A stretch of DNA of 64,000 nt from Streptomyces sp. NBC_00459 (GTDB taxonomy: Bacteria > Actinomycetota > Actinomycetes > Streptomycetales > Streptomycetaceae): the NCBI RefSeq assembly GCF_036013955.1, contig NZ_CP107903.1, positions 4,402,001-4,466,000 of the forward strand, read 5' to 3'. Both the position numbers and the translations under genes were made by a program. Shown here piece by piece: positions 1 through 12,467 of this stretch (position 1 is the first letter of the stretch; each line of letters opens with the position of its first letter). The notes below the pieces were generated by a model that saw only the letters and a program-made list of their open reading frames with translations, did no database searches and had not been told where the DNA came from.

Positions 1-1
1 G

Positions 2-406
2 AAGTCGTACGTCGGGAAGGGCGAGTCGCTCGTCCCGGTGCCCTTGCCCGATCCCGGCAACGCCGAGGCGCTGCACTGGCAGACGGCGGCCGGCCTCGGG
101 TTCAAACTGCCGGGCGGGTACTTCAACGGGCCGTACGGCGAGGAGCGCGTGGGCATCTACGGCGCCTCACCCCGCTTCACCTCCAACATGCTGCGGGACG
201 TGCGCTACAACGGCGTCGCGCCGACGATCGGCGCCAACTGGCGGGCACAGGCCAAGAAGGACTTCGCGTACTGGAAGGCGGGCGTGCTGGTGCTGGCACC
301 GCAGGGCAACGACGGGGTGCTGCGCGAGACGCTGGAGCAGTTGACGGGCCAGAAGGGTAAGTGGACGGGCGGGGTGTGGGTATGGGACCTGCACGACGGG
401 TCGTGA
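2..406 (+). CDS. C-terminal end of a probable membrane glycosyltransferase-like protein (partial)
   Basis: The frame is open from the window edge to TGA at 404-406, so only the last 134 residues are present and the start lies outside the window. The fragment has a WQTAAGLGF segment followed by PGGYFNGPYG and ends WTGGVWVWDLHDGS. From memory this pattern is found in the extracytoplasmic C-terminal part of large Streptomyces integral membrane proteins annotated as GT-C or YfhO-like glycosyltransferases. No membrane helix is present in the visible part, which fits a soluble C-terminal domain. The substrate cannot be inferred from this fragment. The family placement is a recollection and is moderately uncertain. 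Confidence 0.55.
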   Translation, partial: KSYVGKGESLVPVPLPDPGNAEALHWQTAAGLGFKLPGGYFNGPYGEERVGIYGASPRFTSNMLRDVRYNGVAPTIGANWRAQAKKDFAYWKAGVLVLAPQGNDGVLRETLEQLTGQKGKWTGGVWVWDLHDGS

Positions 407-419
407 GCCCCCTCCCGGG

Positions 420-449
420 CTGTTCCTGACCTGTTCCTGACCTGTTCCT
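420..449 (+). repeat. 11-bp tandem repeat (ctgttcctgac, about 2.7 copies)
   Basis: The unit ctgttcctgac runs head to tail just downstream of the preceding stop codon. It lies in the short gap before the next gene. No inverted repeat or terminator stem was seen with it. Confidence 0.7.
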
Positions 450-564
450 TTCGTTGTCTGGCCCGTCACACGGGGGTCCGACCCACCCACCACCCACTAC
501 GCTTCCCTGACTGCTCTGCCCACGGTGCCTGACCACCGCCTGCGACGATGCGAGGAGTTCTCCT

Positions 565-1215
565 TTGGCCTGTGACCTGTGGCTGGTCCCACTCGTCGAC
601 GTGCTCTGTCACACCCCCGACAACCCCTTCGCCGACGAACTCGCGCTCTACGACAAGGTGCTGGGCGAGGCGGGACTGCCTCCGGTGCCGGTCTACGCGT
701 ACATGCCGGGGCTGTCCGGCGACGTGGCCCCGATCGCGGGCTTCGACTACGACGCGCTGCACTTCCTGCGCCGCGCGTATCTCCTCCAGGTGTGCGGTCT
801 GCCGGTGACGCCGGTGGACGAACTGGGCGGTGACTACGAGCAGTTGCTGGAGATGTTCGAGGCGACCGCCCAGCAGTCGCACCTGGTCTGGCACTACGAC
901 CACGCGGGCGCCTACGTCCCGGTGGACTTCCCACACCCTCTTTCGAGCGACGAACTCCTCGCGGGGGGCGGCCCGTTGGGCTCGTCCCAGACCCTGCTGA
1001 GGGAGCTGGAGTTCGTGGCTCCCTCGATCGGCATCGACCCGGCGAACCCCCCGGTGGCCCCGGCCCCGCCGCTGACCCCGACGTCACTGGAGGAACCGGC
1101 GGCACCCGCACCGCACGACTCGAGCCCGTTCGCCCGGGAACGGCACGTGTGGCTGGGGTTGAACGCGGCGGCGACGCGGAGCCTGGCCCAGGGGTCGATG
1201 ATCGTCTTCAGCTGA
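565..1215 (+). CDS. Hypothetical protein, 216 aa
   Basis: The start is TTG at 565, supported by GAGGAG at 552-557 with 7 nt spacing; no better ATG or GTG with a ribosome site is in frame. The protein is acidic in its first 150 residues, with motifs such as FDYDALHFLRRAYLL and HLVWHYDHAGAYVPVDFP. A Pro/Ala-rich linker (about residues 150-185) and a short conserved-looking tail, RHVWLGLNAAATRSLAQGSMIVFS-like, follow. There is no signal peptide, membrane helix or recognised catalytic motif. The first gene lies upstream on the same strand, but the 158-nt gap argues against tight coupling. I do not recognise the family. Confidence 0.75.
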   Translation: MACDLWLVPLVDVLCHTPDNPFADELALYDKVLGEAGLPPVPVYAYMPGLSGDVAPIAGFDYDALHFLRRAYLLQVCGLPVTPVDELGGDYEQLLEMFEATAQQSHLVWHYDHAGAYVPVDFPHPLSSDELLAGGGPLGSSQTLLRELEFVAPSIGIDPANPPVAPAPPLTPTSLEEPAAPAPHDSSPFARERHVWLGLNAAATRSLAQGSMIVFS

Positions 1216-1245
1216 GCGTGGGCGTGGGCGCACGCGGCGGCACGC

Positions 1246-1536
1246 TCACCGGATCTGGGAGAGCCCCTTCTGCAGATCCTCGGCGTTCATGATCGGGGTG
1301 AACGAGACCTTGGCGTTGAACTGGGTGAAGAACGGCTCGGCGGTGGCCGGCATCTGGGAGGAGTCCTCCATGTCGAGGACCATCCAGCAGCACCGGCAGC
1401 CCTCGTCCGGTCCGAAGTACGCCGCCTCCGGCTTGAGGTGGTCCATGGTCTCCTTCAACAGCTCCGGCAGCTTGCCGCTGCGTATGCCCTCGTTGCCCTT
1501 CTCGGTGTCGAACTGCGCCTTGAGCAGAACGCGCAT
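1246..1536 (-). CDS. Small conserved protein, 96 aa, DUF3303-like
   Basis: The start ATG at 1536 is preceded on the minus strand by AGGAGAAGG, a strong ribosome site; the longer upstream reading frame lacks one. The protein begins MRVLLKAQFDTEKGNEGIRSG and contains GCRCCWMVLDMEDSSQ, followed by VSFTPIMNAEDLQKGL. This layout resembles small dimeric alpha/beta-barrel (ferredoxin-like) domains of the DUF3303 or muconolactone-isomerase-like type. Three cysteines lie within four residues (about 47-50), which could bind a metal, but this is only noted. It diverges from the hydrophobin-like gene across 147 nt. The biochemical role is unknown. Confidence 0.75.
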   Translation of the reverse strand: MRVLLKAQFDTEKGNEGIRSGKLPELLKETMDHLKPEAAYFGPDEGCRCCWMVLDMEDSSQMPATAEPFFTQFNAKVSFTPIMNAEDLQKGLSQIR

Positions 1537-1683
1537 GGCACTCACCTTCTCCTGATCGACGCGCGGGCACGCAGTCGTACGCACTCGCACCAAATCAGGA
1601 TATGCCCGGCATCGATACTTGGCGTGCGCACGTTCGGCCCACCCGAAATGCGCATATCGCGACCGGATGATCACCATGCGTGC

Positions 1684-2130
1684 ATGAACCAACGCATACG
1701 CACCCTGGTGCCACTTGCCGCTTTCACGGCGTCGGCGATGGTGTCCCTGTTGCCGGGCACAGCCACGGCGCAGACGGCCCCCGCCACCACCATGGTCAAG
1801 CTCCCGGCCGGCTACTGCTGCCAGGAACTCGCCCCCGCCGGCGACAGCCACCTCGCCCACGTCCTCGCCGAGGCGGACCTCACCGTCCCGGCGGACGTCT
1901 CCGTCGGCATCAACTGCCATCCGAGCAACTTCACGCCCGAGGAACACGTCGAGGAGTGCGAACCCGGAGTCGCCGTGGAGTGCGTCGCCGACGCCCACGC
2001 GGGCCGGTACGGGCTCGTCGCGCTGGGCTGCGTCCCCGCGGGCTCCGTCCACATCGTCGACCTCCACCGCGCGGGTGGCGCGCGTACGGGACAGGACGCA
2101 CGTACGGGACGGCTGGTGACCGCGTCATGA
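1684..2130 (+). CDS. Secreted hydrophobin-like protein, 148 aa
   Basis: An N-terminal signal peptide is clear (MNQRIRT, hydrophobic core, cut near ATAQ, about residue 30). The mature part has six cysteines at 45, 46, 78, 92, 100 and 116. Their spacing and context follow fungal class I hydrophobins: a CC pair, then VGINCHP, C, C, and a closing GLVALGCVPA matching the hydrophobin GLINIGCTPI-type ending. Hydrophobins coat cell surfaces and interfaces. The two missing cysteines correspond to C1 and C6, which form one disulfide in fungal hydrophobins, so the remaining three bridges could still form (inference). Its stop overlaps the pectate lyase start by ATGA, so the two are translationally coupled. 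Homology rather than convergence is not proven. Confidence 0.6.
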   Translation: MNQRIRTLVPLAAFTASAMVSLLPGTATAQTAPATTMVKLPAGYCCQELAPAGDSHLAHVLAEADLTVPADVSVGINCHPSNFTPEEHVEECEPGVAVECVADAHAGRYGLVALGCVPAGSVHIVDLHRAGGARTGQDARTGRLVTAS

Positions 2131-2918
2131 ACGTGAACACGAACCGGATCCGCACCCTCCTCGGCGCCGGCCTCACCCTGGCGGTCACCCTCACGCTCAC
2201 CGCCGGGCCCTCGCCCGCCGCCGCCGCGACCTGGCCGGCCGCGAAGCGCACCCAGAAGGTGACCGCGACCATCAAGGTCCCCGCCGGCACCAAGAACTAC
2301 GACTTCACCCGCTTCGTCGGCAGCGGCGCCCTCGGCGGCGGCGACCAGACCGAGAACCAGCCGCCCATCCTCGAACTCGCGGACGGCGCCACGATCTCCA
2401 ACGTGATCATCGGCGCACCGGCCGCCGACGGCATCCACTGCCGGGGCACCTGCACCATCAAGAACGTCTGGTGGGAGGACGTCGGCGAGGACGCGGCCAC
2501 GTTCAAGGGCACGCGTGCCAACCAGACGATGACGATCGACGGCGGCGGTGCCCGCAAGGCGGCCGACAAGGTGTTCCAGCACAACGGCCCCGGCACGTTC
2601 GTCATCAAGAACTTCGAGGTCGAGAACTTCGGCAAGCTGTACCGCTCCTGCGGCGTCTGCAAGACCCAGTACCAGCGCAACGTGATCGTCGACAACGTGA
2701 CGATCAAGGCGCCCGGCCTGGACGTCGTCGGCATCAACGCGACCCCCTACGGCGACACGGCCAAGCTGACGCGCGTCACCGTCATCGGCGACGCGGCCCG
2801 CAAGATCGTGATCTGCCAGAAGTTCCGCGGGACGACCGTCGGCGAGCCCACGAAGACGGGCTCGGGCCCGGACGGCAGGAACTGCATCTACCGCACGTCC
2901 GACGTCACCTACAAGTAG
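2127..2918 (+). CDS. Secreted pectate lyase, polysaccharide lyase family 3
   Basis: This 263-residue enzyme should cleave polygalacturonate by beta-elimination outside the cell. A signal peptide covers about residues 1-35 (ends PAAAA). PL3 hallmarks are visible: NVWWEDVGEDAATFKG (113-128), GARKAADKVFQHNGPGT (141-157), and a cysteine-rich turn RSCGVCKTQYQRN (173-185) typical of the parallel beta-helix core. The length matches single-domain PL3 enzymes and there is no carbohydrate-binding module. ATG overlaps the upstream stop in ATGA, and GH12 follows after 18 nt, so the three form a probable operon. The family assignment is firm; activity is inferred. Confidence 0.9.
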   Translation: MNVNTNRIRTLLGAGLTLAVTLTLTAGPSPAAAATWPAAKRTQKVTATIKVPAGTKNYDFTRFVGSGALGGGDQTENQPPILELADGATISNVIIGAPAADGIHCRGTCTIKNVWWEDVGEDAATFKGTRANQTMTIDGGGARKAADKVFQHNGPGTFVIKNFEVENFGKLYRSCGVCKTQYQRNVIVDNVTIKAPGLDVVGINATPYGDTAKLTRVTVIGDAARKIVICQKFRGTTVGEPTKTGSGPDGRNCIYRTSDVTYK

Positions 2919-2936
2919 CGGTAAGGAAGAGACATC

Positions 2937-3770
2937 GTGGTCACCATCAAGCGTCTGTACCGCCTGCCGTTGCTCGTCGGACTGGCGAGCGCTGCCGTAG
3001 CGGCACCACTGCTGCTCGCCCCCGGCGCCTCCGCCGTCCCCGCCCCTGCGGCCGTCGCCAAGCCGACGGACATCTGCACGGCCTTCAACACGGTGAAGGT
3101 CCCGCCGTACTACCTCAACAACAACGTCTGGGGTGCGAAGGGCGCGACGGGCCAGGAGTGCACCTGGCTCAACTCGTACAAGAACGGCAAGATCAACTGG
3201 GAGACGTCCTTCGACTGGAAGGGCGGCGACCCGCACGGCGTCAAGGCGTACGCCAGCGCCGTCCTGGGCTGGCACTGGGGCTGGAAGGACACCACCACCA
3301 AGCTCCCGGTCCGCCTCAACAGCGGCCGTAAGGTGACGTCGTCCTGGAGCTTCAACATCACCCAGACGACGCCGACGGTCATGAACGTCTCGTACGACCT
3401 CTGGTTCCACCAGAAGTCCAACCCGGACTGGCAGGACCAGCCGCACGACGAAATGATGGTCTGGCTCAACCGCCAGAACGGCGCGGGCCCTCTCGGCACG
3501 AAGCGCGAGACGCTGACCGTGGGCGGTGTCGCCTGGGACCTCTACGTCGGCAAGATCGTCAACACGAACAGCAGTTGGAACGTCTTCTCGTTCGTCCGCA
3601 AGACCAACACCAACTCGCAGACGACCGACCTGACGGCCCTGACCGGCGCGCTGGTCCAGCGCAAGCTCATGGCCAACACCAACTACCTGACCAGCGTGGA
3701 GGCGGGCACCGAAGTCTTCAGCGGCAAGGGCAAGTTGAGCACGTCGTCGTACTCGGTGAGTGTGGGCTGA
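2937..3770 (+). CDS. Secreted glycoside hydrolase family 12 (endoglucanase/xyloglucanase)
   Basis: The start is GTG at 2937 after AAGGAAGAG. The product is 277 residues with a signal peptide to about residue 34 (ends GASA). GH12 motifs are present: NNVWG and ECTW near the N-terminus, the nucleophile segment DEMMVWLNR with Glu172, and the acid/base segment VEAGTEVFSG with Glu259. GH12 enzymes cleave beta-1,4-glucan or xyloglucan with retention of configuration. No cellulose-binding module is attached. It lies 18 nt after the pectate lyase gene and is followed by a strong hairpin at 3788, so it probably ends the operon. Cellulose versus xyloglucan preference cannot be read from the sequence. 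Confidence 0.9.
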   Translation: MVTIKRLYRLPLLVGLASAAVAAPLLLAPGASAVPAPAAVAKPTDICTAFNTVKVPPYYLNNNVWGAKGATGQECTWLNSYKNGKINWETSFDWKGGDPHGVKAYASAVLGWHWGWKDTTTKLPVRLNSGRKVTSSWSFNITQTTPTVMNVSYDLWFHQKSNPDWQDQPHDEMMVWLNRQNGAGPLGTKRETLTVGGVAWDLYVGKIVNTNSSWNVFSFVRKTNTNSQTTDLTALTGALVQRKLMANTNYLTSVEAGTEVFSGKGKLSTSSYSVSVG

Positions 3771-3787
3771 CGACCCGCCGGCCGTCC

Positions 3788-3818
3788 GGGGCCCGCGTCC
3801 TTTCGGGGCGCGGGCCCC
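3788..3818. terminator. Bidirectional hairpin terminator
   Basis: Perfect 10-bp arms GGGGCCCGCG (3788-3797) and CGCGGGCCCC (3809-3818) flank an 11-nt loop. The hairpin lies between the convergent GH12 gene and the PIN-domain gene. Confidence 0.8.
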
Positions 3819-3840
3819 TTCCCATTGCCGGTGCCGGAAG

Positions 3841-4275
3841 CTACCGCTGACGCGGCAGCCTGAGGGTCCGCACGAGGGGCATGTCCGCGTACAGATCGGG
3901 GTCGACAGTCAGTACACGCCGGCCGTTCGGCCAGTCCGCCGTCGGCCGGGACAGGTGGACCGCGTGGCCGAGCCGCCACTCCACCCCGTCGCGCAGCAGC
4001 GCGCCCACGGTGGACGCGCCGGCGAAGTCCAGCTCGACGATCTCGACGGCGGGCAGGGCGCCGATGTGCTCGGCCAGCCCCTTGCGCATGCCGTCGGCAG
4101 CGGCGAGGCAGAGCGCGGGCACGTACACGTGCCGGGTTGGCCCGTGCTCGGTGTTGGACACGAACTGCGAGGCGAGCGAGTTGCCCGACCCGAGCGCCAG
4201 CAACGCCGACTCATCGAAGACGACCCCGGTCGACCCGGAGGGTCCAGACCTTCCGCCTCCCTTTGCGGTGCTCAC
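3841..4275 (-). CDS. PIN-domain-like toxin, 144 aa
   Basis: The start GTG at 4275 overlaps the antitoxin stop in GTGA, which favours it over the longer open frame. The N-terminal part reads VVFDESALLALGSGN, matching the first PIN-domain strand with its catalytic Asp. Further acidic positions occur around VEIVELDFAG and at VLTVDPDLYA near the C-terminus. PIN toxins of type II modules are Mg-dependent ribonucleases that cut RNA. The middle segment HVYVPALCLAAADGM is also PIN-like. Position directly behind a ribbon-helix-helix-like gene supports the assignment. The exact RNA target is unknown. Confidence 0.7.
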   Translation of the reverse strand: MSTAKGGGRSGPSGSTGVVFDESALLALGSGNSLASQFVSNTEHGPTRHVYVPALCLAAADGMRKGLAEHIGALPAVEIVELDFAGASTVGALLRDGVEWRLGHAVHLSRPTADWPNGRRVLTVDPDLYADMPLVRTLRLPRQR

Positions 4276-4535
4276 AGGCTCTCCACCTCCTGTCCGGCCT
4301 CCAGGTCCTGCCACACCTTCTCGACCCTGTCGTGGTCCTCGTCGGTGAGGATGACCCCGAAGTGCGTCTCGCAGTACGCCTTGGTCTCCTCGTACCGCTT
4401 CCGCAGCTCCTCCTGGGTCGGCGTGGCCCCCGCCAGCTCTGCGATCAGATCGCGCATGGTCATCCCGCGCTCGCGGGCGAGCACCATGAGGCGGTCACGG
4501 ACCAGGGGGTCGACCTTGACGGTGGTGTCAGCCAT
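4272..4535 (-). CDS. Ribbon-helix-helix-like antitoxin, 87 aa
   Basis: The first 35 residues (TTVKVDPLVRDRLMVLARERG then MTMRDLIAEL) have a beta-strand plus two helices typical of RHH DNA-binding antitoxins. The C-terminal half is charged and helical (EELRKRYEETKAYCETHF), suitable for wrapping a toxin. It should neutralise the PIN protein and repress the operon. ATG at 4535 lies directly after a TATACT box with only six bases between, so the mRNA may be leaderless. Two GTATAC palindromes overlap this box. Confidence 0.75.
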   Translation of the reverse strand: MADTTVKVDPLVRDRLMVLARERGMTMRDLIAELAGATPTQEELRKRYEETKAYCETHFGVILTDEDHDRVEKVWQDLEAGQEVESL

Positions 4536-4559
4536 GACGACAGTATACCTGCGGTATAC
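4536..4559 (-). promoter_or_regulatory. Toxin-antitoxin promoter with two GTATAC operators
   Basis: On the minus strand, GGTATACC is followed by CGCAG and GTATACT, then GTCGTC and the ATG. TATACT is a near-consensus -10 box, placing the transcription start about at the A of ATG. The self-palindromic GTATAC copies (4543-4548 and 4554-4559) are one helical turn apart, as expected for cooperative RHH binding and autorepression. No convincing -35 box at 17 nt was seen. Confidence 0.6.
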
Positions 4560-4654
4560 CGTCTCGGGCCGCTCAAGCAATGCGGTCATCCTGTTTCCTC
4601 CCGGGTGGGTGACCCGGCCGCACGGACGCACGGCCGGGAGACTGTGTACGACGC

Positions 4655-5575
4655 CTACGCGGGCGCGGGCCGCCCCTGCAGCAGGGCGCGGGCCAGAGCC
4701 CCGCCACGTCGTGCCGCATCGCGATAACTGCCGGAGGCGTCGGGCTTGCGGATCTCAACGGTCGTGACGGGTACGGCCGTTGTCGCTCCGGACGCCGCCC
4801 GACCTGCCGACTCGACGGCGGCAGCGACCGGCGCGACTGCAGCGGCCGGTGCGGCCGGGCATTTGCGGCGCAGGCGGTCCTCGACGATGGCGCGGGGCGA
4901 GTACAGCCGCGAGGGCAGCCCCTGCGTCAGCGCCGCGCGTACCTGTGCACTGCTCGCCCCCGCCGCCCACCACTCCTCGACCAGCGGCGCCAGCCGCAAC
5001 GCCTCGGCGGCACCGAGGGCCAGCCGGGGCTCGGTACGGCTGAGCGAGCCGAGCAACCGCGCGGCGAGCGCGGTGCGTTCGCCGGGCGGAGCCCCGGGCT
5101 CGGCCGGTGGCACCTCGCCTGCCGCCGTCTCGGCCGACGGCGCGTCGGCCGACGGCGGGGAGGGAGGTTCTTCTTCCCTGGTCTTTTCGACCGAAGGGAG
5201 AGCTCCCGAAGCCCCGGATTCCGACTCACCGGAGGCCCGGTTCTGAACTTCTTCGGATTCACCCGCAGGGGGCTCGTCGTCGTACGGAGTGTCGAACACC
5301 TCGTACACGGTGGAGAATTGCCCGGACTCCTCGTCCTTGCGCACCACCCGCCGCAGATACCGGGATTCCTCCAGCTCATGCAGGGCGGCAGCGATCCGCG
5401 CCCGCCCTTCCTTGCGCTGCTCGGCGAGGGTACGGATGGTGGCGCGGGCGCCGTTCGGCAGGCTGAGGAGGTACGTCAGTACGCCTACCGCGCACCAGGA
5501 GAGACTCCGGTCGCGGAGAAGGGCGTTGGAGAAGACTGAAAAGGCGCGCGTGGGCGTCGTACGATGAATGCGCAT
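4655..5575 (-). CDS. Winged-helix DNA-binding protein, 306 aa
   Basis: A helix-turn-helix region spans about residues 8-90: LSWCAVGVLTYLLSLPNGAR, then IRTLAEQRKEGRARIAAAL and LEESRYLRRVV, followed by a beta-wing-like VYEVFDTP. This is the replication-initiator-like wHTH common in Streptomyces proteins of unknown role. A long acidic, Pro/Ser/Glu-rich linker follows (about 95-165). A second alpha-helical part (about 170-240, WWAAGASSAQVRAALTQGLP) and a low-complexity Ala/Val tail complete it. The start MRIHRTTP at 5575 was chosen because conserved sequence begins there; no clear ribosome site precedes it. Probably a transcription factor; ligand and targets are unknown. Confidence 0.65.
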   Translation of the reverse strand: MRIHRTTPTRAFSVFSNALLRDRSLSWCAVGVLTYLLSLPNGARATIRTLAEQRKEGRARIAAALHELEESRYLRRVVRKDEESGQFSTVYEVFDTPYDDEPPAGESEEVQNRASGESESGASGALPSVEKTREEEPPSPPSADAPSAETAAGEVPPAEPGAPPGERTALAARLLGSLSRTEPRLALGAAEALRLAPLVEEWWAAGASSAQVRAALTQGLPSRLYSPRAIVEDRLRRKCPAAPAAAVAPVAAAVESAGRAASGATTAVPVTTVEIRKPDASGSYRDAARRGGALARALLQGRPAPA

Positions 5576-5714
5576 CTGGAGGTCGATTCTCTGGGTGCCG
5601 AGCCCCCGGGTGTTGGCGCACCGCGGGGGCGTTCTTTGTTGCCGTGACTCTAAGGGCACGCAGAGCGACGAATGCAAGCTGAACGGGCTTTTCTCGGGCG
5701 GAAGTTCACGTTCT

Positions 5715-6167
5715 TCACTCTTCGGGGTGAAGTGCCGCCTTCAGAAGCAACGCGTGTACGAGGTGATCTCTCCCCGTCGGCCGATAACGCCAAGTCAGCG
5801 GCCATGTCTGGCCGTTGAGCGCCGGGACGGGGATGAAGGCGATGCGGCACGGACCGGACGCGAGACAGGTGACTCCCGGTGGCCAGACCCGGCGGGTCGT
5901 CGCACCCACGGGCACGAGGAAGTAGACCGCACGACTCCCGTTCGCCTCCTCAACCACAGGCCCCGGCGCACCGCCGGTCATCCGCGCCAGCCGGTCCGCC
6001 GCAGCCCGGCCCTCGTCGCCGTCCACCCGTACCGCGTCGAACTGGACGCCCGCCTTGCGGAGTTGGATACCGGTGGGCGGGATCCAGTCGGGGATGTCGA
6101 GGGTGTCGGGGATCTCAGGGGCGAGTGGGGGTTCGGCGAGGTTTGTCTCGTCACTTTCTGTGTTCAT
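5715..6167 (-). CDS. Hypothetical protein, 150 aa, next to the XRE/DUF397 locus
   Basis: The protein starts with an acidic, Pro/Glu-rich segment (MNTESDETNLAEPPLAPEIP), followed by a compact globular part with DAVRVDGDEGRAAADRL, AVYFLVPVGATTRRVWPPGV and LTWRYRPTGRDHLVHALLL. No signal peptide or membrane helix is present. The pattern 'GSRAVYFLVPVGAT' recalls the N-terminal part of bifunctional primase-like proteins, but catalytic residues are not evident. The start ATG at 6167 is chosen because upstream sequence has poor codon bias; no strong ribosome site was seen. It diverges from the XRE regulator, as third genes in WhiJ-type loci often do. Function unknown. Confidence 0.6.
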   Translation of the reverse strand: MNTESDETNLAEPPLAPEIPDTLDIPDWIPPTGIQLRKAGVQFDAVRVDGDEGRAAADRLARMTGGAPGPVVEEANGSRAVYFLVPVGATTRRVWPPGVTCLASGPCRIAFIPVPALNGQTWPLTWRYRPTGRDHLVHALLLKAALHPEE

Positions 6168-6291
6168 GGGGACAGTTTCGGCAGGTGGGGCTAGCTTCTT
6201 CCATAACTCTGCGTCGAGAGTTGGTAGCTGTCGGAATTCGACGTGGGTCGGTGGTGACCAGTTGAGTTCGGTTGAGTTCGGGAGTGACCGG

Positions 6292-7128
6292 ATGGCGAGT
6301 TCGGACAACAAGGTGGAAGCGGGCGGCACGGCACACATGGTCGCCGCCCTCGCCAAGGCCCTGCGCGAGCAAATGGGGCTCACGCAGGAGGAGTTGGGCA
6401 AGCTGATCGGCTACACGGCATCGGCGGTCAGCGCGATGGAGACGTGCGCGCAGCCCGCGAGCGACAAGATGCTCGTCAAGCTGGAGGAGGTGCTCGGGGG
6501 TGGGCTGGGCGTCTTCGAGAAGGCCCGGAAGTGGATGCTGCTGGAGAAGTACCCGGCCCGGTTCCGGGGGTTCGCGGGGCTGGAACGCGGCGCGGTCACC
6601 ATCTCCTCGTACGCCAACTTCGTCATCGACGGGATCTTCCAGACCGAGGCGTACGCCCAGGCACTCATCCGGGGCGGCTATCCGGCGGTCTCCGACCAGA
6701 AGCGCGAGGAACTCGTCGAGGCGCGGCTCGCCCGCCGGGCGCTCTTCGACCGCGACCCCGCCCCGCTGGTCGAGCTGATCCTCGAAGAGAGCGTGCTACG
6801 GCGGCCGTTCGGCGACCGGGACGTCATGCGCGGGCAACTGCTCTCGCTCGCAGAGGACGCCCAGAGGGAGAATGTGTGTCTGCAAGTACTACCGTTGGAA
6901 CGCGGGTTGCGCGGATCGCACGCCGGTGACCGAGGCCCCATGAACCTCCTCGTCACCGAGGACCACGACCACGTCGTCTACATGGAGATCGAGGACCAGG
7001 GCATCCTGATCAGCGATCCCCCCGAGGTGGCACAACTCGCCCACCGCTATGCGAAGATCCGATCGCAGGCCCTGAGTCCCGACGACTCACTCGGCCTCAT
7101 CGAACGGTTGGCAGGAGAGGAACCATGA
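6292..7128 (+). CDS. XRE-family regulator with Scr1-type (DUF5753) C-terminal domain
   Basis: ATG at 6292 is preceded by GGGAG. Of the 278 residues, about 15-75 form a Cro/C1-type helix-turn-helix (LREQMGLTQEELGKLIG, then SAVSAMET). The remaining 200 residues are the DUF5753 sensor-like domain, with typical segments WMLLEKYPARFRGFAGLER, YANFVIDGIFQTEAYAQALI, and PAPLVELILEESVLRRPFG. These proteins pair with small DUF397 proteins in WhiJ/Scr1-like modules that affect development or antibiotic production and have been compared with toxin-antitoxin systems. The stop overlaps the DUF397 start by ATGA, so this is one transcription unit. Confidence 0.9.
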   Translation: MASSDNKVEAGGTAHMVAALAKALREQMGLTQEELGKLIGYTASAVSAMETCAQPASDKMLVKLEEVLGGGLGVFEKARKWMLLEKYPARFRGFAGLERGAVTISSYANFVIDGIFQTEAYAQALIRGGYPAVSDQKREELVEARLARRALFDRDPAPLVELILEESVLRRPFGDRDVMRGQLLSLAEDAQRENVCLQVLPLERGLRGSHAGDRGPMNLLVTEDHDHVVYMEIEDQGILISDPPEVAQLAHRYAKIRSQALSPDDSLGLIERLAGEEP

Positions 7129-7376
7129 GCGACGCCGGTGCACTGCGATGGTTCAAGTCCAGCTACAGCGACAGCGGCGGCGGCGCCTGCGTCGAAGTCG
7201 CCTACGCCTGGCGCAAGTCGACGTACAGCGACGGCGGCGGCGGTAACTGCGTAGAGATCGCCCCCTGCCCTCACTCCCCCACCGCCGCGATACACATCCG
7301 CGACTCCAAGAACCCCGGCGGCCCGAACCTCACCGTCGCCGGTGAGGCCTGGGCCGCGTTCCTCTTCTACAGGTAG
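7125..7376 (+). CDS. DUF397 protein with duplicated N-terminal motif, 83 aa
   Basis: This is the small partner of the upstream XRE regulator, overlapping it by 4 nt. The DUF397 signature occurs twice: WFKSSYSDSGGGACVEVA at about 9-26 and WRKSTYSDGGGGNCVEIA at about 28-45. The usual ending IHIRDSKNPGGPNLTVAGEAWAAFL follows once. Most family members are 60-70 residues with one motif, so an internal tandem duplication of about 19 residues is likely. The partner may be sequestered or activated by this protein. The 3' end overlaps the convergent secreted-protein gene by 10 nt. Confidence 0.9.
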   Translation: MSDAGALRWFKSSYSDSGGGACVEVAYAWRKSTYSDGGGGNCVEIAPCPHSPTAAIHIRDSKNPGGPNLTVAGEAWAAFLFYR

Positions 7377-7873
7377 TACCAGTCGACGGCCACGTCCTGG
7401 CCGCCGAGGCCGGTCGCGATGATGGAGACGTTGATGACGGGGTTGCCCTTGGCCTTGCCGCCCACGTACCAGCACTTGATGAACTGGAAGCCGCGCGAGG
7501 GCGGGCAGCTCGCGTCGGAGCGGTAACCGACCTTACGGCCGTCCATCGTCAGGGTGTCGGCGGCGAGGAGATGCACGCCGTCCCAGTACGAGTCGGATCC
7601 CGCCCCGTCGCAGGCGGTGAGCTTGCTGCCGGTCGAGGCGTCGCCCGTCGAGCCCGCAGCCTGCTGGGTGCCGTTGTACCAATGGGTGGAGGCGCAGTTG
7701 GCCAGCCGCTTCACCTGCGTCGCGCGCCAGCTGAAGTCGCCGCTGTACTTCAGCGTGTCCGCCAGGGCTGTTCCGGCGGTGATGCCGAGCGCGAGTGCCA
7801 TGGCGGTCAGCACCATGCCGATGCGGGCCGCGATCCTTGCTCGACGTGAGTGCTTGGGGGGCGTGGGCGTCAT
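7367..7873 (-). CDS. Small secreted protein of unknown function, 168 aa
   Basis: A positively charged N-terminus (PKHSRRARIAARIG) leads into a hydrophobic core and a cut site near GTALA (about residue 38). The mature part is rich in Gly, Ser, Thr and aromatic residues and has four cysteines (near NCAST, TACDG, ASCPP, IKCWY), likely two disulfides. AGGACC precedes the ATG at 7873. No catalytic motif is recognised. It converges on and slightly overlaps the DUF397 gene. It may be a cell-surface or culture-fluid protein; no better statement is justified. Confidence 0.75.
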   Translation of the reverse strand: MTPTPPKHSRRARIAARIGMVLTAMALALGITAGTALADTLKYSGDFSWRATQVKRLANCASTHWYNGTQQAAGSTGDASTGSKLTACDGAGSDSYWDGVHLLAADTLTMDGRKVGYRSDASCPPSRGFQFIKCWYVGGKAKGNPVINVSIIATGLGGQDVAVDWYYL

Positions 7874-8148
7874 GGTCCTGTCTTTCGTTCTGGGGGGAAG
7901 AACTGATGACTGGACGTGAGAATGGCTGGCCCGTCGACCGTCGGCGTGACGTGATCATTCCTCGGCCGTAACGAACTCTCTTTTCTCCCGGCGATCTTGC
8001 TGTGAGCCTCCTTTGCCCGTGTCTTTACCGACCTGCTGACAGCCGTGGCAACCCCCCCTTGCCCGCCCCGCTGTCCGGCCACATAGCCTGCTCCGAGGAT
8101 TCCGTTTTCTCCCCGGCCTGAGCTCCGGGACTTCCTCGGAGGCAGCCG

Positions 8149-8373
8149 ATGAACGACATACGGTGCACCCAGTGTGGTGCCGTGGGGCTGCAGCCGGGCT
8201 TCGTCGAGGACTCCGGGCAAGGCGCTCGCGGGTTCGCCCGGTGGATCGAAGGGGCCCTTGAGCGAGGCCCGCTGGGCGGTGCCAAGAGGATGGGGCGGCC
8301 TCACTGGCAGATCGACGCCTATCGCTGTCCCAACTGCGCGCACCTGGAACTGTTCGCCGCTCAGCGTGACTAG
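8149..8373 (+). CDS. Zinc-ribbon-like small protein, 74 aa
   Basis: ATG at 8149 follows a strong CGGAGG site. Two CxxC knuckles lie near the ends: CTQC (about 6-9) and CPNC (about 60-63), separated by a basic, Gly-rich middle. This is the layout of a single zinc ribbon, as in small nucleic-acid-binding or structural proteins. The TAG stop is the first triplet of the TAGCGAC heptamer array into which the insertion sequence jumped, so the gene itself is intact. Role unknown. Confidence 0.75.
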   Translation: MNDIRCTQCGAVGLQPGFVEDSGQGARGFARWIEGALERGPLGGAKRMGRPHWQIDAYRCPNCAHLELFAAQRD

Positions 8374-8387
8374 CGACTAGCGACTAG
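8371..8387 (+). repeat. Left part of a TAGCGAC heptamer array
   Basis: Two full TAGCGAC units (8371-8377, 8378-8384) plus TAG lie directly against the left end of the insertion sequence. The array continues beyond the element at 9831. The first unit carries the stop codon of the zinc-ribbon gene. Confidence 0.9.
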
Positions 8388-9829
8388 TAGGGCTTGGTCA
8401 GGTGCGGTCCTTGATGGCGTGTCTTCCTGATCGGTCGTGCCGTTGATCGGGTGTGCTGGGTGGGGAGTTGGCTGCGGTCCGGTGTGATCTGGAGGACTTC
8501 GCGGCGGAGATGTTCGAGCCGTTCGCGCGGGCAGATCAGCGGCGGTGGGGCGAGGTATATCTGCGGGGCCTGCTGCTGGACGGCGGGCGCAAGTCGGTGG
8601 AGCCGATGGCCGCCCGCCTGGGCGAAGACGGGAACCGGCAGGCCCTGGCCCACTTCGTCACTTCCAGCCCGTGGGACGCGGCACATGTCCGGGCCCGTTT
8701 GGCCTGGCGGATGCAGCCGGTCATCAAGCCCACCGCGTTGATCATCGATGACACCGGGTTCCTCAAGGACGGGGACGCGTCCGCGTGCGTGACCCGGCAG
8801 TACACCGGCACCGCGGGCAAGGTCACCAACTGCCAGGCCGGGGTCTCGCTGCACCTGGCTTCCAACGGCGCCTCGGCGGCGGTGAACTGGCGTCTGTTCC
8901 TGCCCGAGAGCTGGGATCCCGCCTCGCCGAAGGCGGATCCGGTCAAAGTGGTCCGCCGTGCCAAGTGCGCCATCCCTGCCCAGGCGGGCCATGTCGAGAA
9001 GTGGCAGCTGGCCCTCGACATGATCGACGAGACGCGCTCCTGGGGCATCGAGGTGCCCCAGGTCATCGCCGACGGCGGCTATGGGGATACCGCCGCCTTC
9101 CGGCTTGGCCTGGAGGAACGCGGTCTCCACTACGTGGTGGGCATCTCGACCACGACCACCGCGCAACCCGGGGACGCACAGCCGTGCACCCCGGCCTACC
9201 CCGGCCGGGGACGACGGCCGGTTCCTGCCTACCCCGAGCTGGCACAGAGGGTGAAGAGCCTGGTCATCGCGGCCGGCAAATCTTCCGCACGGCCAGTGCA
9301 GTGGAGGGAGGGATCGCGGCCGGGCAGTGGCCGCAGCGGGCACAAACGCATGTACTCGCGCTTCGTGGCCCTGCGGATCCGGCCCGCCGGACGTGAGATC
9401 TGCAAAGCCACCCCCGGCGCCGAACTGCCGGTGCGCTGGCTGCTGGCCGAATGGCCAGCCGACCAGGACGAGCCCGTGCAGTTCTGGCTCTCCAACCTGC
9501 CCGAGACCACCCCGTTGCCCGTCCTCGTGCGCACCGCGAAGCTTCGCTGGCGCATCGAGAACGACTACCGAGAGATGAAGCAGGCCCTGGGCCTGGCCCA
9601 CTTCGAAGGCCGAACCTGGCCAGGCTGGCACCACCACGTCACCCTCGTTTCGGTCGCCCACGCCTTCTGCACCCTGCAGCGACTGAGCCGATCCCCAAAA
9701 GAGACGGCGTCGGCCTGAGCCTCTACCGAGTCGTTCGCGAGCTGCAGTTACTCCTCGTGATCTGGACCGGCGCCTGCCCCACCTGTCACCGCGACATGCC
9801 AGACCTCGCACCAACATGACCAAGCCCTA
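8388..9829 (+). mobile_element. IS701-family insertion sequence, 1442 bp, complete
   Basis: Perfect 13-bp terminal inverted repeats are visible: TAGGGCTTGGTCA (8388-8400) and TGACCAAGCCCTA (9817-9829). The flanks are the 4-bp direct repeat CTAG (8384-8387 and 9830-9833), matching the YTAR target duplication known for IS701. A single full-length transposase gene lies inside with no frameshift. Perfect ends and an intact gene suggest recent insertion. The target was a run of TAGCGAC repeats containing many CTAG sites, between two genes, so no gene is interrupted. It has no passenger genes. Confidence 0.93.
8453..9718 (+). CDS. IS701-family DDE transposase, 421 aa
   Basis: The protein moves the surrounding element by cut-and-paste. 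The DDE residues can be placed at LIIDDTGFLKDG (about 97-108, first Asp), QVIADGGYGDTAAFRLGL (about 202-219, second Asp) and LRWRIENDYREMKQALGL (about 367-384, Glu of the Y-2-R-3-E type motif). The start is a GTG at 8453; the ribosome site is weak, which is common in transposase genes. The reading frame is intact across the element. The N-terminal region (RWGEVYLRGLLLDGGRKSVEPMA) is the usual IS701 entry domain. Confidence 0.92.
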   Translation: MLGGELAAVRCDLEDFAAEMFEPFARADQRRWGEVYLRGLLLDGGRKSVEPMAARLGEDGNRQALAHFVTSSPWDAAHVRARLAWRMQPVIKPTALIIDDTGFLKDGDASACVTRQYTGTAGKVTNCQAGVSLHLASNGASAAVNWRLFLPESWDPASPKADPVKVVRRAKCAIPAQAGHVEKWQLALDMIDETRSWGIEVPQVIADGGYGDTAAFRLGLEERGLHYVVGISTTTTAQPGDAQPCTPAYPGRGRRPVPAYPELAQRVKSLVIAAGKSSARPVQWREGSRPGSGRSGHKRMYSRFVALRIRPAGREICKATPGAELPVRWLLAEWPADQDEPVQFWLSNLPETTPLPVLVRTAKLRWRIENDYREMKQALGLAHFEGRTWPGWHHHVTLVSVAHAFCTLQRLSRSPKETASA

Positions 9830-9830
9830 C

Positions 9831-9865
9831 TAGCGACTAGCGACTAGCGACTAGCGACTAGCGAC
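9831..9865 (+). repeat. Right part of the TAGCGAC heptamer array (five units)
   Basis: Five exact TAGCGAC units run from 9831 to 9865. Together with the two left units the pre-insertion locus had about seven tandem copies. Each unit junction recreates CTAG, the IS701 target. Confidence 0.9.
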
Positions 9866-9948
9866 CGATCAAGTCGCCCCCGACTGCCGTCAGTTCCACA
9901 TCAACGTCCGGCAGCGGGAAACTACGGCAGCGTTGCCGGGCGCTGGCC

Positions 9949-10689
9949 TCAGCAGTGGCAAAGCACGTCGATGACGACGGTGTCGGGGTCGAGGCCGTCG
10001 AGATAGCGGTCGGCCTGTTCCCAGTGGCCGTCTGTTTCCCCGTCCGTCCACGAGCCGTCAAGGGCGACCAGGGCGAAGCTGGGCACGGCGCTCCGGGCCG
10101 ACCACAGCCGGGCTTCCTCGTGGTCGTGCGCGAAGTATTCGACGGGGTCGCGGGTCAGGAACGACATGTCAAAGTGCGGGTCTCCCGCAAGGGCCCGCTT
10201 GACCACGTCCTGGATGAGCGGCTGGAGGAGATGCTCCTCCTTGGCATCTCCCCGGGAGTAATTTTCGGGATCGGCCTCGTGGCGAGCGAGGAAGTCCGCG
10301 AAGGCGCGCGCCGGCGGGTGTATCGCGGTCAGCTCGGTCCAAGCGGCGAGGCGGGCGTCGTACGCGCCCACCGCTCGGTTCCGCATACCGTCGAAGTCGA
10401 GCAGGCCCCGGGGCCCGCCGTAGCATTCCAGCGGCCCGAGGGCATCGAGCCTGGCCTTCCTGCGCGGCACGGTGGACGCTGTGACGAGCCTGCGGTCGTC
10501 GGCGTGTTCGGGCAGCACGAGGTAGGCGTTGCCCGCGCCGTTGTGGATGGCCCACCAGTCCCAGTGGCCGTCCGGACTCCACTCCTCGGTGAGCTCGGAG
10601 TTGTAGGGCGCCAGGGCGGCGGCTACCGCCTTCGGAACCTTTCGAGGCGCGGTCGGCGGCAGGCACACGGTGGCGAAGAACTTGGTCAT
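9949..10689 (-). CDS. Conserved hypothetical protein, 246 aa
   Basis: The protein begins MTKFFATVCLPPTAPRKVPKAVA, continues with DGHWDWWAIHNG, CYGGPRGLLDFDGMR, and ends with SFALVALDGSWTDGE and VVIDVLCHC. This arrangement is familiar from a Streptomyces family of uncharacterised cytoplasmic proteins of 230-260 residues, rich in Trp and Asp, without signal peptide or membrane helix. ATG at 10689 is used because the conserved opening starts there, although the ribosome site is weak. It diverges from the ECF sigma gene. I cannot assign an activity. Confidence 0.75.
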   Translation of the reverse strand: MTKFFATVCLPPTAPRKVPKAVAAALAPYNSELTEEWSPDGHWDWWAIHNGAGNAYLVLPEHADDRRLVTASTVPRRKARLDALGPLECYGGPRGLLDFDGMRNRAVGAYDARLAAWTELTAIHPPARAFADFLARHEADPENYSRGDAKEEHLLQPLIQDVVKRALAGDPHFDMSFLTRDPVEYFAHDHEEARLWSARSAVPSFALVALDGSWTDGETDGHWEQADRYLDGLDPDTVVIDVLCHC

Positions 10690-10896
10690 GCCCGGGAGCG
10701 TAAGTCCTGGGATTCTTCCGCCCGCCCGTCCGCCCGTCCGTACGACCGCCCGGTGGCGCACGCGCCGTCTCGTGCCGCGAAGTGTTCTCCTGCTCGGTCG
10801 CGTGGTCACGACGTGGGGAACCGGATTCCCGCGATCGGCGAAGTACTGGTGAAGGCACAGGACTTCAGCACCATCGAACCGACGAAAGGAGCCCCG

Positions 10897-11538
10897 ATGA
10901 CCGTCGAGCCAGACGTCAGAGTGGGGCAGGAGAGTGACGCCTCGGTGGTCGAACGGTCGTGGCACGAGCCCGAGGTGTTCGCCGTGCTCTTCGACCGCCA
11001 TGCCGACTCGGTGCACGGATACGCGGCGCGCCGGCTCGGCGGGGAGGCGGCCGAGGACGTGATGGCGGAGACCTTCACCACCGCGTTCCAGCAGCGCTTC
11101 CGGTACGACACGGGGCAGGCCGGCGCCCGTCCGTGGCTGTTCGGCATCGCGACCAACCTCATCAGCCGCCACCGGCGTGCCGAGGCCCGGAGGCTGAGGG
11201 CGCTCGGACGGCTGCCTCCGGACGGCACCGGCGGCGGCCGGGCCGACGAGACGGTCGCGGACCAGGTGGCGGCGCGGGTCAGCGCACAGGCGGTAGGGCG
11301 TGAACTCGCCGGTGCGCTGGCCCGGTTGCCCGCCCGTCATCGGGACGTCCTGCTGCTGGTCGCCTGGGCCGACCTCGGCTACGAGGAGGTCGCGCGCGCC
11401 CTGAACGTACCGGTGGGGACGGTCAGGTCGCGGCTGCACAGGGCCCGCAGAAAGGTTCGCGAGGCATTGGGCGGAGCTGATCCAACAGCTCTCCAAGAGG
11501 AATCCGGGCAATCAGACGATGGAGGTTTCCGGCGATGA
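10897..11538 (+). CDS. RNA polymerase ECF-type sigma factor, 213 aa
   Basis: ATG at 10897 follows GAAAGGAG. Region 2 is at about 28-75 (FAVLFDRHADSVHGYAARRL, AEDVMAETFTTAFQQ) and region 4 at about 140-190 (LARLPARHRDVLLLVAW, YEEVARALNVPVGTVRSRLH). It redirects RNA polymerase to a specific promoter set. The stop overlaps the next gene by ATGA, and that gene encodes a single-helix membrane protein of the type that accompanies such sigma factors in actinomycetes. The pair is therefore probably a signal-responsive unit at the membrane, although no zinc-binding anti-sigma motif is present. Confidence 0.92.
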   Translation: MTVEPDVRVGQESDASVVERSWHEPEVFAVLFDRHADSVHGYAARRLGGEAAEDVMAETFTTAFQQRFRYDTGQAGARPWLFGIATNLISRHRRAEARRLRALGRLPPDGTGGGRADETVADQVAARVSAQAVGRELAGALARLPARHRDVLLLVAWADLGYEEVARALNVPVGTVRSRLHRARRKVREALGGADPTALQEESGQSDDGGFRR

Positions 11539-12467
11539 ACGAACTCAAGCTCCTCAGGGAGTGGGACGCGGGCGCGCCTGCTCTCACGGATGCCGCCCGT
11601 ACCCGTGCACGCTTCCGCCTGCACCAGGCGATGCGGGAGCCCGGCGCGGTCACGACCATCGGCCGCCGTCCGCTGCTGCGGGTCGCGGTGGCCGCCGTAG
11701 CCGCTGCGACGGTCACCGCGACTGTGGTGGTCGCCCAGAACACGGGGGCCTCGCCCCCCACCCAGACGGTGAGCGCGGCCACCGTGCTGCGAGGGGCTGC
11801 GGCCGAGGAACGCAGGCTCGAAAAGCCGATCGCGCCACGCGATGACCAGTTCATCTACAGCAAGGAGATCATCAAGGAAACCCCGGTCGGAGGCGGCCGC
11901 ACCAAGACATACGTCGACGAGAGCTGGAGCTCGGTCGACGGCTCCAAGAAGTCGTACCTCAGCGAGCTGGGCGATGGCGTCTGGGACCCGCCGTTCGAGC
12001 CGGGGGAGAGCATTTGGCCGCCGAACAGGTGGTCGGAGCTGAAGCAACTGCCCACCGACCCTGTCAAGCTGCCGTTCGCGCTGCGCAACCTCCTCGGGAA
12101 TCCGGAACCCGACCGGCCTTTGAGGGCCTCCGAGTGGCCGCTGGTCCAGTTCGGCCTCTCCGGCCTGCTCCGCAAGCCCGTTCTGCCGAAGGGACTGCGC
12201 GCCGCGACATTCGAGGCACTCGCCACCGTCCCCGGCATCAAGGTGCTGCCGGGCCGGACGGACGCGGCGGGCCGCCCGGGCGTCGGCATCCAGTACGTCG
12301 ATCCCAACATGCCCCGGGGGGGCGGCGCACAGGTGCTGGTCTTCGACGCGAAGACGTATCAGTACCTCGGTATGCGCGACCAGCGCACAGAGGGAGGGAC
12401 GACGTACGAGCAGTGGTCCTATCTGGTCGCCCACGGCGTCGTGGACCGAGTGATGCAACGCCCCTGA
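11535..12467 (+). CDS. CU044_5270-type membrane protein paired with the ECF sigma factor, 310 aa
   Basis: The cytoplasmic N-terminus (MNELKLLREWDAGAPALTDAARTRARFRL) leads to one membrane helix at about 48-68. The extracytoplasmic part contains PRDDQFIYSKEIIKE, then WSSVDGSKKSYLSELGDGVW, and ends with VLVFDAKTYQYLGMRDQ. This follows the actinobacterial CU044_5270 family, which regularly sits behind ECF sigma genes and may act as anti-sigma or sensor protein (inference from position). The 4-nt overlap supports co-translation. The last codon and stop lie within the first copy of a 36-bp tandem repeat. Confidence 0.8.
   Translation: MNELKLLREWDAGAPALTDAARTRARFRLHQAMREPGAVTTIGRRPLLRVAVAAVAAATVTATVVVAQNTGASPPTQTVSAATVLRGAAAEERRLEKPIAPRDDQFIYSKEIIKETPVGGGRTKTYVDESWSSVDGSKKSYLSELGDGVWDPPFEPGESIWPPNRWSELKQLPTDPVKLPFALRNLLGNPEPDRPLRASEWPLVQFGLSGLLRKPVLPKGLRAATFEALATVPGIKVLPGRTDAAGRPGVGIQYVDPNMPRGGGAQVLVFDAKTYQYLGMRDQRTEGGTTYEQWSYLVAHGVVDRVMQRP

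Follow-up and report, generated by a model that had tools for sequence, protein, structure and literature searches.

The window analysed here, a 64,000-nucleotide stretch of the genome of Streptomyces sp. NBC_00459, encodes a small secreted protein that is very probably a true homologue of the fungal class I hydrophobins. Rather than a canonical hydrophobin with eight cysteines, it is an offshoot of the family in bacteria, reduced in cysteines to three possible bridges, and it belongs to a scattered Streptomycetaceae family. This offshoot may well work like a hydrophobin, and we assign a probability of about 0.6 to homology and surface activity jointly.

The gene is an open reading frame of 148 codons on the forward strand (positions 1684-2130, ATG to TGA), with a GC content of 0.73/0.54/0.88 at the three codon positions. 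Its 148-residue product carries a putative Sec signal peptide (residues 1-29, forward strand 1684-1770), which was read by eye from the sequence (MNQRIRT... to ...PGTATA) and has a basic n-region, a hydrophobic stretch and an AxA motif. The hydrophobin domain (residues 44-118, forward strand 1813-2037) is the stretch matched by the Pfam profile PF01185. With 148 residues, the signal peptide read by eye and a core GRAVY of 0.23, the protein has the small size, secretion and moderate hydrophobicity of hydrophobins; three fungal domains gave GRAVY values of 0.20, 0.25 and 0.65. The hydropathy of the loop between C7 and C8 is 0.63 in the window core, compared to -0.42, -0.42 and 0.53 in the three fungal domains. 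The cores of nine bacterial proteins range in GRAVY from -0.38 to 0.36 against 0.20-0.65 for the three fungal domains, and three of the other bacterial cores fall below the fungal values (-0.06, -0.18 and -0.38). Contamination by fungal DNA was rejected, as the gene sits in a single-contig bacterial genome of 9.76 Mb, together with the codon-position GC and the synteny of its neighbours in two further genomes.

PF01185 is the sole Pfam family that the window protein matches at E≤10. The profile search proposed in the sequence-only reading gave an E-value of 5e-5 over profile positions 7-78 of 79, and the score of 24.3 bits lies above the curated cut-off of 23 by just 1.3 bits. It is the only PF01185 match in the whole genome. 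The chaplin profile PF03777 did not match the protein at E≤10 in Pfam, NCBIfam gave no match at E≤1, and PF01185 is absent from 14 named control genomes. A single-sequence search of the PDB with the window protein returned the hydrophobin 5w0y only, with an E-value of 0.044, so that the protein on its own is borderline.

A profile built from nine bacterial proteins, including the degenerate L004, matched the PDB entries 2nbh (E=6.6e-13), 7s7s (1.1e-12) and 6e98 (1.9e-9), and more weakly 5w0y (6.3e-8) and 6e9m (0.0017); two of these entries are sequences of SC16, and the other three are different hydrophobins. MPG1 reached only E=1.2 in the same search, and RodA, EAS and DewA were not among the matches listed. 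A core-only profile found hydrophobins at E-values from 1e-11 (7s7s) to 0.0023, the next non-hydrophobin standing at 1.6. The three organisms named among these hydrophobin matches are basidiomycetes, which gives a hint of where the nearest fungal branch may lie. A tree built from the nine bacterial and four fungal domains, which are short, does not resolve whether the origin was single or which way the transfer went, and both are therefore inferred.

The contribution of the cysteine pattern was separated from that of the other residues by shuffling the non-cysteine positions 5,000 times in each of six of the nine bacterial cores, with the cysteines fixed, and scoring against a fungal profile built from four hydrophobin sequences only. 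The window core scored 23.2 bits, compared to 17.8 bits for its best shuffle, and the core of the relative L002 scored 45.7 bits, compared to 22.6. In all six proteins the 5,000 shuffles stayed below the observed score without exception, and chance convergence by cysteine spacing alone was rejected on these grounds.

AlphaFold2 models, made from the bacterial sequences alone, are of modest confidence, with a mean pLDDT of 58.7 for the whole protein and 68.8 for the core, the remaining four models of the core run lying at 44.8-52.0. The models run strand, helix, strand, strand, strand, to which the whole-protein model adds a short first strand. Structural similarity search using Foldseek against 350,542 solved chains matched the whole-protein model to 5w0y (E=3.9e-3, probability 1.00), whereas the other 49 of the best 50 of 130 rows had probabilities of at most 0.04. 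The core model matched 5w0y (E=1.9e-3), 7s86 (0.019) and 7s7s (0.024), each with probability 1.00, and the other 23 of all 26 rows stood at 0.05 or less; neither model gave a match under E=0.001. Among these rows (the best 50 of 130 and all 26), obtained with models of modest confidence, there is no immunoglobulin-like chain of the BslA type. In two further sets of alignments, of 389 and of 133 chains, all five chains with a Z-score of at least 2 are class I hydrophobins, with Z-scores of 5.1-6.5 over 70-79 residues and an RMSD of 3.3-4.8, values under the threshold of 8 at which a Z-score stands by itself. The fold result from these models is thus moderate but consistent, and it favours the class I hydrophobins, including a four-stranded barrel that is present by prediction only. 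The earlier assignment as a secreted hydrophobin-like protein (1684-2130) is hence supported by PF01185, the family profile, the cysteine-fixed shuffles and the structure prediction it had proposed, for which the confident Foldseek matches are all class I hydrophobins.

The six cysteines of the protein (C45, C46, C78, C92, C100 and C116; spacings 0, 31, 13, 7 and 15) correspond to C2, C3, C4, C5, C7 and C8 when aligned via the family profile to SC16. C1 and C6 are absent from the window protein and from all eight full-length intact bacterial members, each of which has six cysteines in its domain and no orphan cysteine. Class I hydrophobins have eight cysteines with the doublets C2C3 and C6C7, joined in four disulfides; here C2C3 is present but C1 and C6 are missing, and the sequence allows three disulfides at most. 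The protein is therefore not a canonical class I hydrophobin. The cysteines in the open reading frame bear out the motifs CC, VGINC and GLVALGC in class I order that were given in the sequence-only reading, and a count of the spacing confirms its 13 residues between C78 and C92. Its claim that the missing cysteines are those of the C1-C6 bridge agrees with the hydrophobin pairing C1-C6, C2-C5, C3-C4 and C7-C8 given for RodA (PMC7389560), the same pair being gone in eight of the eight intact bacterial proteins, and the three of four bridges it allowed for are the most that the sequence permits.

The loss of a bridge could impair function, because cysteine mutants of RodA made no rodlets: in the account of PMC7389560, rodlets were lacking when C5 alone was mutated (C127S) and also when four cysteines were, and the protein was missing from the conidial surface. 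However, these mutations leave orphan partners, whereas in the bacterial proteins both C1 and C6 are gone, and the RodA mutants cited did not include a clean loss of C1-C6.

Searches of several genome samples, which overlap, found PF01185 in just 11 of 392 Streptomyces genomes at E≤0.01, 10 of them over the cut-off. It was found in two of 200 genomes of the family sample, namely that of the window and a genome of a different genus, and in two of 396 genomes of the phylum sample, namely the window's own and one with a 17.8-bit match (L014) below the cut-off, which was set aside as chance after its protein was read. The window core as a query found, among 150 relatives, essentially only its own genome, with one further match of 19.7 bits (L046), so that the window type is patchy. 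A search with the family alignment gave matches in 11 of 394 genomes, of which three are real and eight were set aside; one of the three also had a second match, which was discounted too. A further such search gave nine of 295 genomes, six real and three set aside. The alignment searches score the first few candidates per genome, and members can thus be missed. L046, L054-L056 (19.2-19.7 bits), L035 and L036 are weak matches whose proteins were read and taken as chance, and L061 (22.5 bits) was likewise read and judged chance. L029-L034 and L037 were set aside because their match lies mainly over the N-terminal, signal-peptide part of the profile; their proteins themselves were not read.

The intact members fall into two groups. 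Group A comprises the window gene, L008 (genome G323, Streptomyces sp. SID12501), L009 (G091) and L005 (G314); the window protein shares 92 and 93% identity with its relatives in two of the other genomes. Group B comprises L002 (G035), L003 (G317), L007 (G023) and L013 (G407), with PF01185 E-values of 9.8e-15, 1.1e-10, 9.7e-6 and 3.8e-12, respectively. L004 (G219) scores 36.1 bits with PF01185 and is degenerate, having lost C7, and no signal peptide with a start codon was found. L007 is carried by Streptomyces sp. NBC_01471 on a linear plasmid of 554,737 bases. A search of 72,556 plasmid records with the window protein brought nothing at E≤0.1, and the search with L002 brought one match (E=0.03, 37% identity), which lies on a linear plasmid of this strain. 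The hydrophobin-like gene of the 555 kb linear plasmid (L047 10001-10213; NZ_CP109451.1, 535.8 kb) adjoins a short gene of the carotenoid oxygenase family and is not listed as a gene in the PLSDB table.

Further reduced variants occur in other Streptomyces. A four-cysteine form is encoded by L010 (G303, 1504-1794, reverse strand), L011 (G374, 1483-1764, reverse strand), which is without a clear start codon or signal peptide, L053 (G019, 1504-1815, reverse strand) and the near-identical L058 (G1138, 1501-1725, forward strand). Its order is xxC...C followed by xxC...VGxTC, in which the C7-C8 half appears before the C3-C4 half as if circularly permuted. The halves of L011 match the bacterial profile in swapped order with 15.3 and 18.9 bits; when they are swapped back, one match of 29.0 bits replaces the two and the score of the whole sequence is unchanged (33.8 and 33.9). 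In L010 the C3-C4 half alone is clear (16.7 bits), with 2.1 bits for the other half. PF01185 scores are 24.3 for L010, 31.5 for L011 and 20.0, below the cut-off, for L053. A profile of L010 and L011 matches the hydrophobin 5w0y at E=7.4e-5, and a profile that includes L053, used against the window's own genome, picks out the hydrophobin-like gene with E=4.0e-5, both through the C3-C4 half; the latter profile was matched in five of 159 genomes, two of them with the four-cysteine form. The C7-C8 half only is found in a secreted 70-residue protein of G358 (L006 1405-1617, the same as L019 7220-7432, forward strand), which matches the C-terminal part of PF01185 with 29.3 bits. Upstream of the L006 gene, at L019 5269-6921, is a gene that encodes a large secreted protein. 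Finally, L059 (G051:C1:2651393-2651542), which scores 9.7 bits with the fungal profile, is a secreted protein that resembles the four-cysteine form but has the normal hydrophobin order and lacks C8, and is possibly a link between the normal and the swapped arrangements.

In the window, the hydrophobin-like gene is the first of three genes on the forward strand, followed by genes for a secreted pectate lyase (2127-2918; PF03211, E=8.2e-73) and a secreted GH12 glycoside hydrolase (2937-3770; PF01670, E=6.1e-31). The three genes are present in all four group A genomes with the hydrophobin-like gene in front, and in each of the four cassettes the lyase ATG overlaps the hydrophobin stop codon (ATGA), an arrangement which suggests that the genes are probably translationally coupled. 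In G323 and G091 the synteny with the window extends further. By contrast, blastn alignment of window positions 1-12000 against 16 kb of G314 recovered only 1629-3770 (forward strand), with 78% DNA identity; the cassette and 55 bases of leader thus make up a unit. The flanks of eight other members (L015-L017, L019, L020 and L023-L025) contain no relative of the window's lyase or GH12 enzyme at E≤1e-4, so that the enzyme link is known for group A only; a search for surroundings shared by all members gave none. The two co-encoded enzymes and the scattered family of the protein go beyond what the sequence-only reading had noted. Distant relatives of the lyase (2127-2918), all below 60% identity, occur in 58 plasmid records, namely 39 of Rhizobium, eight of Clavibacter, six of Curtobacterium and five others. 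Elsewhere in the window, a stretch of ~2.5 kb (7365-9919) is missing from the otherwise syntenic relatives L021 and L022 and is likely an insertion; it carries a DDE transposase gene (8453-9718, PF13546) and a gene for a small secreted protein (7367-7873).

Against two close relatives, the core of the hydrophobin-like protein has dN/dS values of 0.08 and 0.11 (Nei-Gojobori), which indicates purifying selection, and the values against G323, one of the two, are 0.57 for the pectate lyase and 0.31 for GH12. Against G314, the core reaches 0.54, compared to 0.31 for the lyase and 0.38 for GH12. These values indicate that the hydrophobin is kept, yet evolves faster than its enzyme partners over the longer distance.

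We propose that the gene was most likely acquired long ago from a fungus, and that the C1-C6 disulfide was then lost whole while C2-C5, C3-C4 and C7-C8 would be kept, a pairing taken from the fungal structures. The protein would be secreted by its putative signal peptide and then fold into the predicted small four-stranded barrel. By analogy with hydrophobins it is probably surface-active, and might form an amphipathic film at interfaces between water and hydrophobic material. Its likely job would be to wet or coat hydrophobic (waxy) plant surfaces, where it would retain or distribute the wall-degrading enzymes secreted with it. Coating of aerial hyphae, a task that the chaplins of the genome can perform, is the less likely role. 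Service to the plant-wall enzymes, again by analogy, has in our judgement a little under an even chance of being right. The analogy draws on cutinases: PMC4855151 describes that layers of MPG1 retain active cutinase 2 on surfaces and that RolA stimulates the cutinase CutL1 on polyester. Layers of albumin and lysozyme recruit cutinase 2 too, if less well (PMC4855151), and such retention is therefore not specific to hydrophobins.

A broader and more tentative proposal, to which we give somewhat poorer than even odds, is that streptomycetes captured a fungal hydrophobin and have been dismantling its disulfides one by one, with the window lineage as an interfacial helper of a mobile wall-degrading cassette. 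The six-cysteine form of the window would then have lost C1-C6 as a pair; the four-cysteine form would have lost C2-C5 as well and swapped its halves, with C7-C8 before C3-C4; and one genome would retain the C7-C8 half only.

Two alternatives accept the homology and place the protein elsewhere. It could be a true hydrophobin homologue that joins or modifies the organism's own chaplin/rodlin sheath on aerial hyphae and spores, the adjoining enzymes being incidental. Hydrophobins coat aerial structures of fungi, and the flanks of the eight other members are without relatives of the two enzymes. The chaplin domain PF03777 occurs at seven other places in the genome, so that the remark in the sequence-only reading that the protein stands beside the bacterium's own chaplins holds for the genome; it fails for the neighbourhood, as the nearest chaplin domain is almost 1 Mb from the window gene. 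We nevertheless consider a role in this sheath unlikely, given the overlap with the lyase gene, the recurrence of the three genes as a block in four genomes (in one of them between unrelated flanks), and the presence of PF01185 in just 11 of 392 Streptomyces genomes, which ill suits a core part of development. The fold might also be homologous without surface activity, in which case the protein would be a small disulfide-rich accessory protein, such as a binding partner, chaperone or inhibitor of the lyase. The overlap with the lyase gene would suit such a role, as would the acidic core (pI 4.3), the low hydropathy of three other members and the loss of a bridge that is structural in fungi. 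However, the hydropathy of the window core lies inside the range of the three fungal domains and that of its C7-C8 loop above theirs, and members exist without a lyase nearby, so the family is not tied to it; we regard this role as quite improbable.

The remaining explanation denies the homology altogether and takes the protein for a cysteine-rich secreted protein peculiar to Streptomyces, whose cysteine spacing is like that of hydrophobins by chance. The borderline score of the window protein alone agrees with this, and so does a profile of group A only, which scores group B at -0.3 to 17.3 bits and fails to separate it from shuffles, the best of which reaches 17.2 bits. The reciprocal profile of group B only, however, scores the four group A proteins at 21.4-30.6 bits, compared to 17.2 for the best of 24,000 shuffles. 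Together with the zero of 5,000 cysteine-fixed shuffles in six proteins, profile E-values down to 6.6e-13 and a fold search that singles out hydrophobins, this makes a chance likeness very improbable indeed.

As an offshoot of the hydrophobins, the window protein is closest in profile and in the order and spacing of six cysteines to SC16 of Schizophyllum commune (7s7s, 7s86 and 2nbh) and to hydrophobins of Serpula (5w0y) and Phanerochaete (6e98). It shares with class I hydrophobins the motifs VGxNC and GLV..GC, the predicted fold and the small, secreted nature, but differs in having six rather than eight cysteines and in being encoded together with wall-degrading enzymes. It also differs from them in its host: class I hydrophobins occur in fungi, whereas this protein is encoded in a bacterial genome and has relatives in other Streptomyces. 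As in the fungal RolA-cutinase and MPG1-cutinase pairs, a hydrophobin and enzymes for plant polymers would meet at one interface; here, however, the partners would be a pectate lyase and a GH12 enzyme, which are encoded side by side with it, and their recruitment is inferred.

Two other kinds of bacterial protein invite comparison. Chaplins are, like the window protein, small secreted proteins of Streptomyces, and are surface-active, but they belong to PF03777 and are encoded separately in the genome, whereas the window protein matches PF01185 only (E≤10). In a review they are named functional homologues of hydrophobins, which are described there as unique to the fungal kingdom (PMC3364958); hydrophobins are likewise said to occur uniquely in mycelial fungi in PMC2253510. 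BslA of Bacillus subtilis, called a bacterial hydrophobin, has the name and the film-forming function in common with hydrophobins, but its fold is described as immunoglobulin-like, not that of a hydrophobin (PMC12375992); the one Pfam family listed for the window protein is PF01185. The same source, a survey of more than 7,000 hydrophobins, applies the term bacterial hydrophobin to BslA and YweA, which have another fold, and the few non-fungal organisms it names for its multi-domain matches include no bacterium (PMC12375992). A search of the open-licence literature gave no description of a bacterial PF01185 protein among the matches listed, which is not proof of absence, and Pfam or InterPro may list such bacterial sequences as members already.

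A sequence homologue in Streptomyces breaks the fungal-only boundary of the hydrophobins. Natural variants that retain three, two or just one conserved bridge could serve to test which disulfides folding and assembly need. Finally, the cassette may represent a bacterial counterpart of the partnership between hydrophobins and enzymes on plant surfaces.
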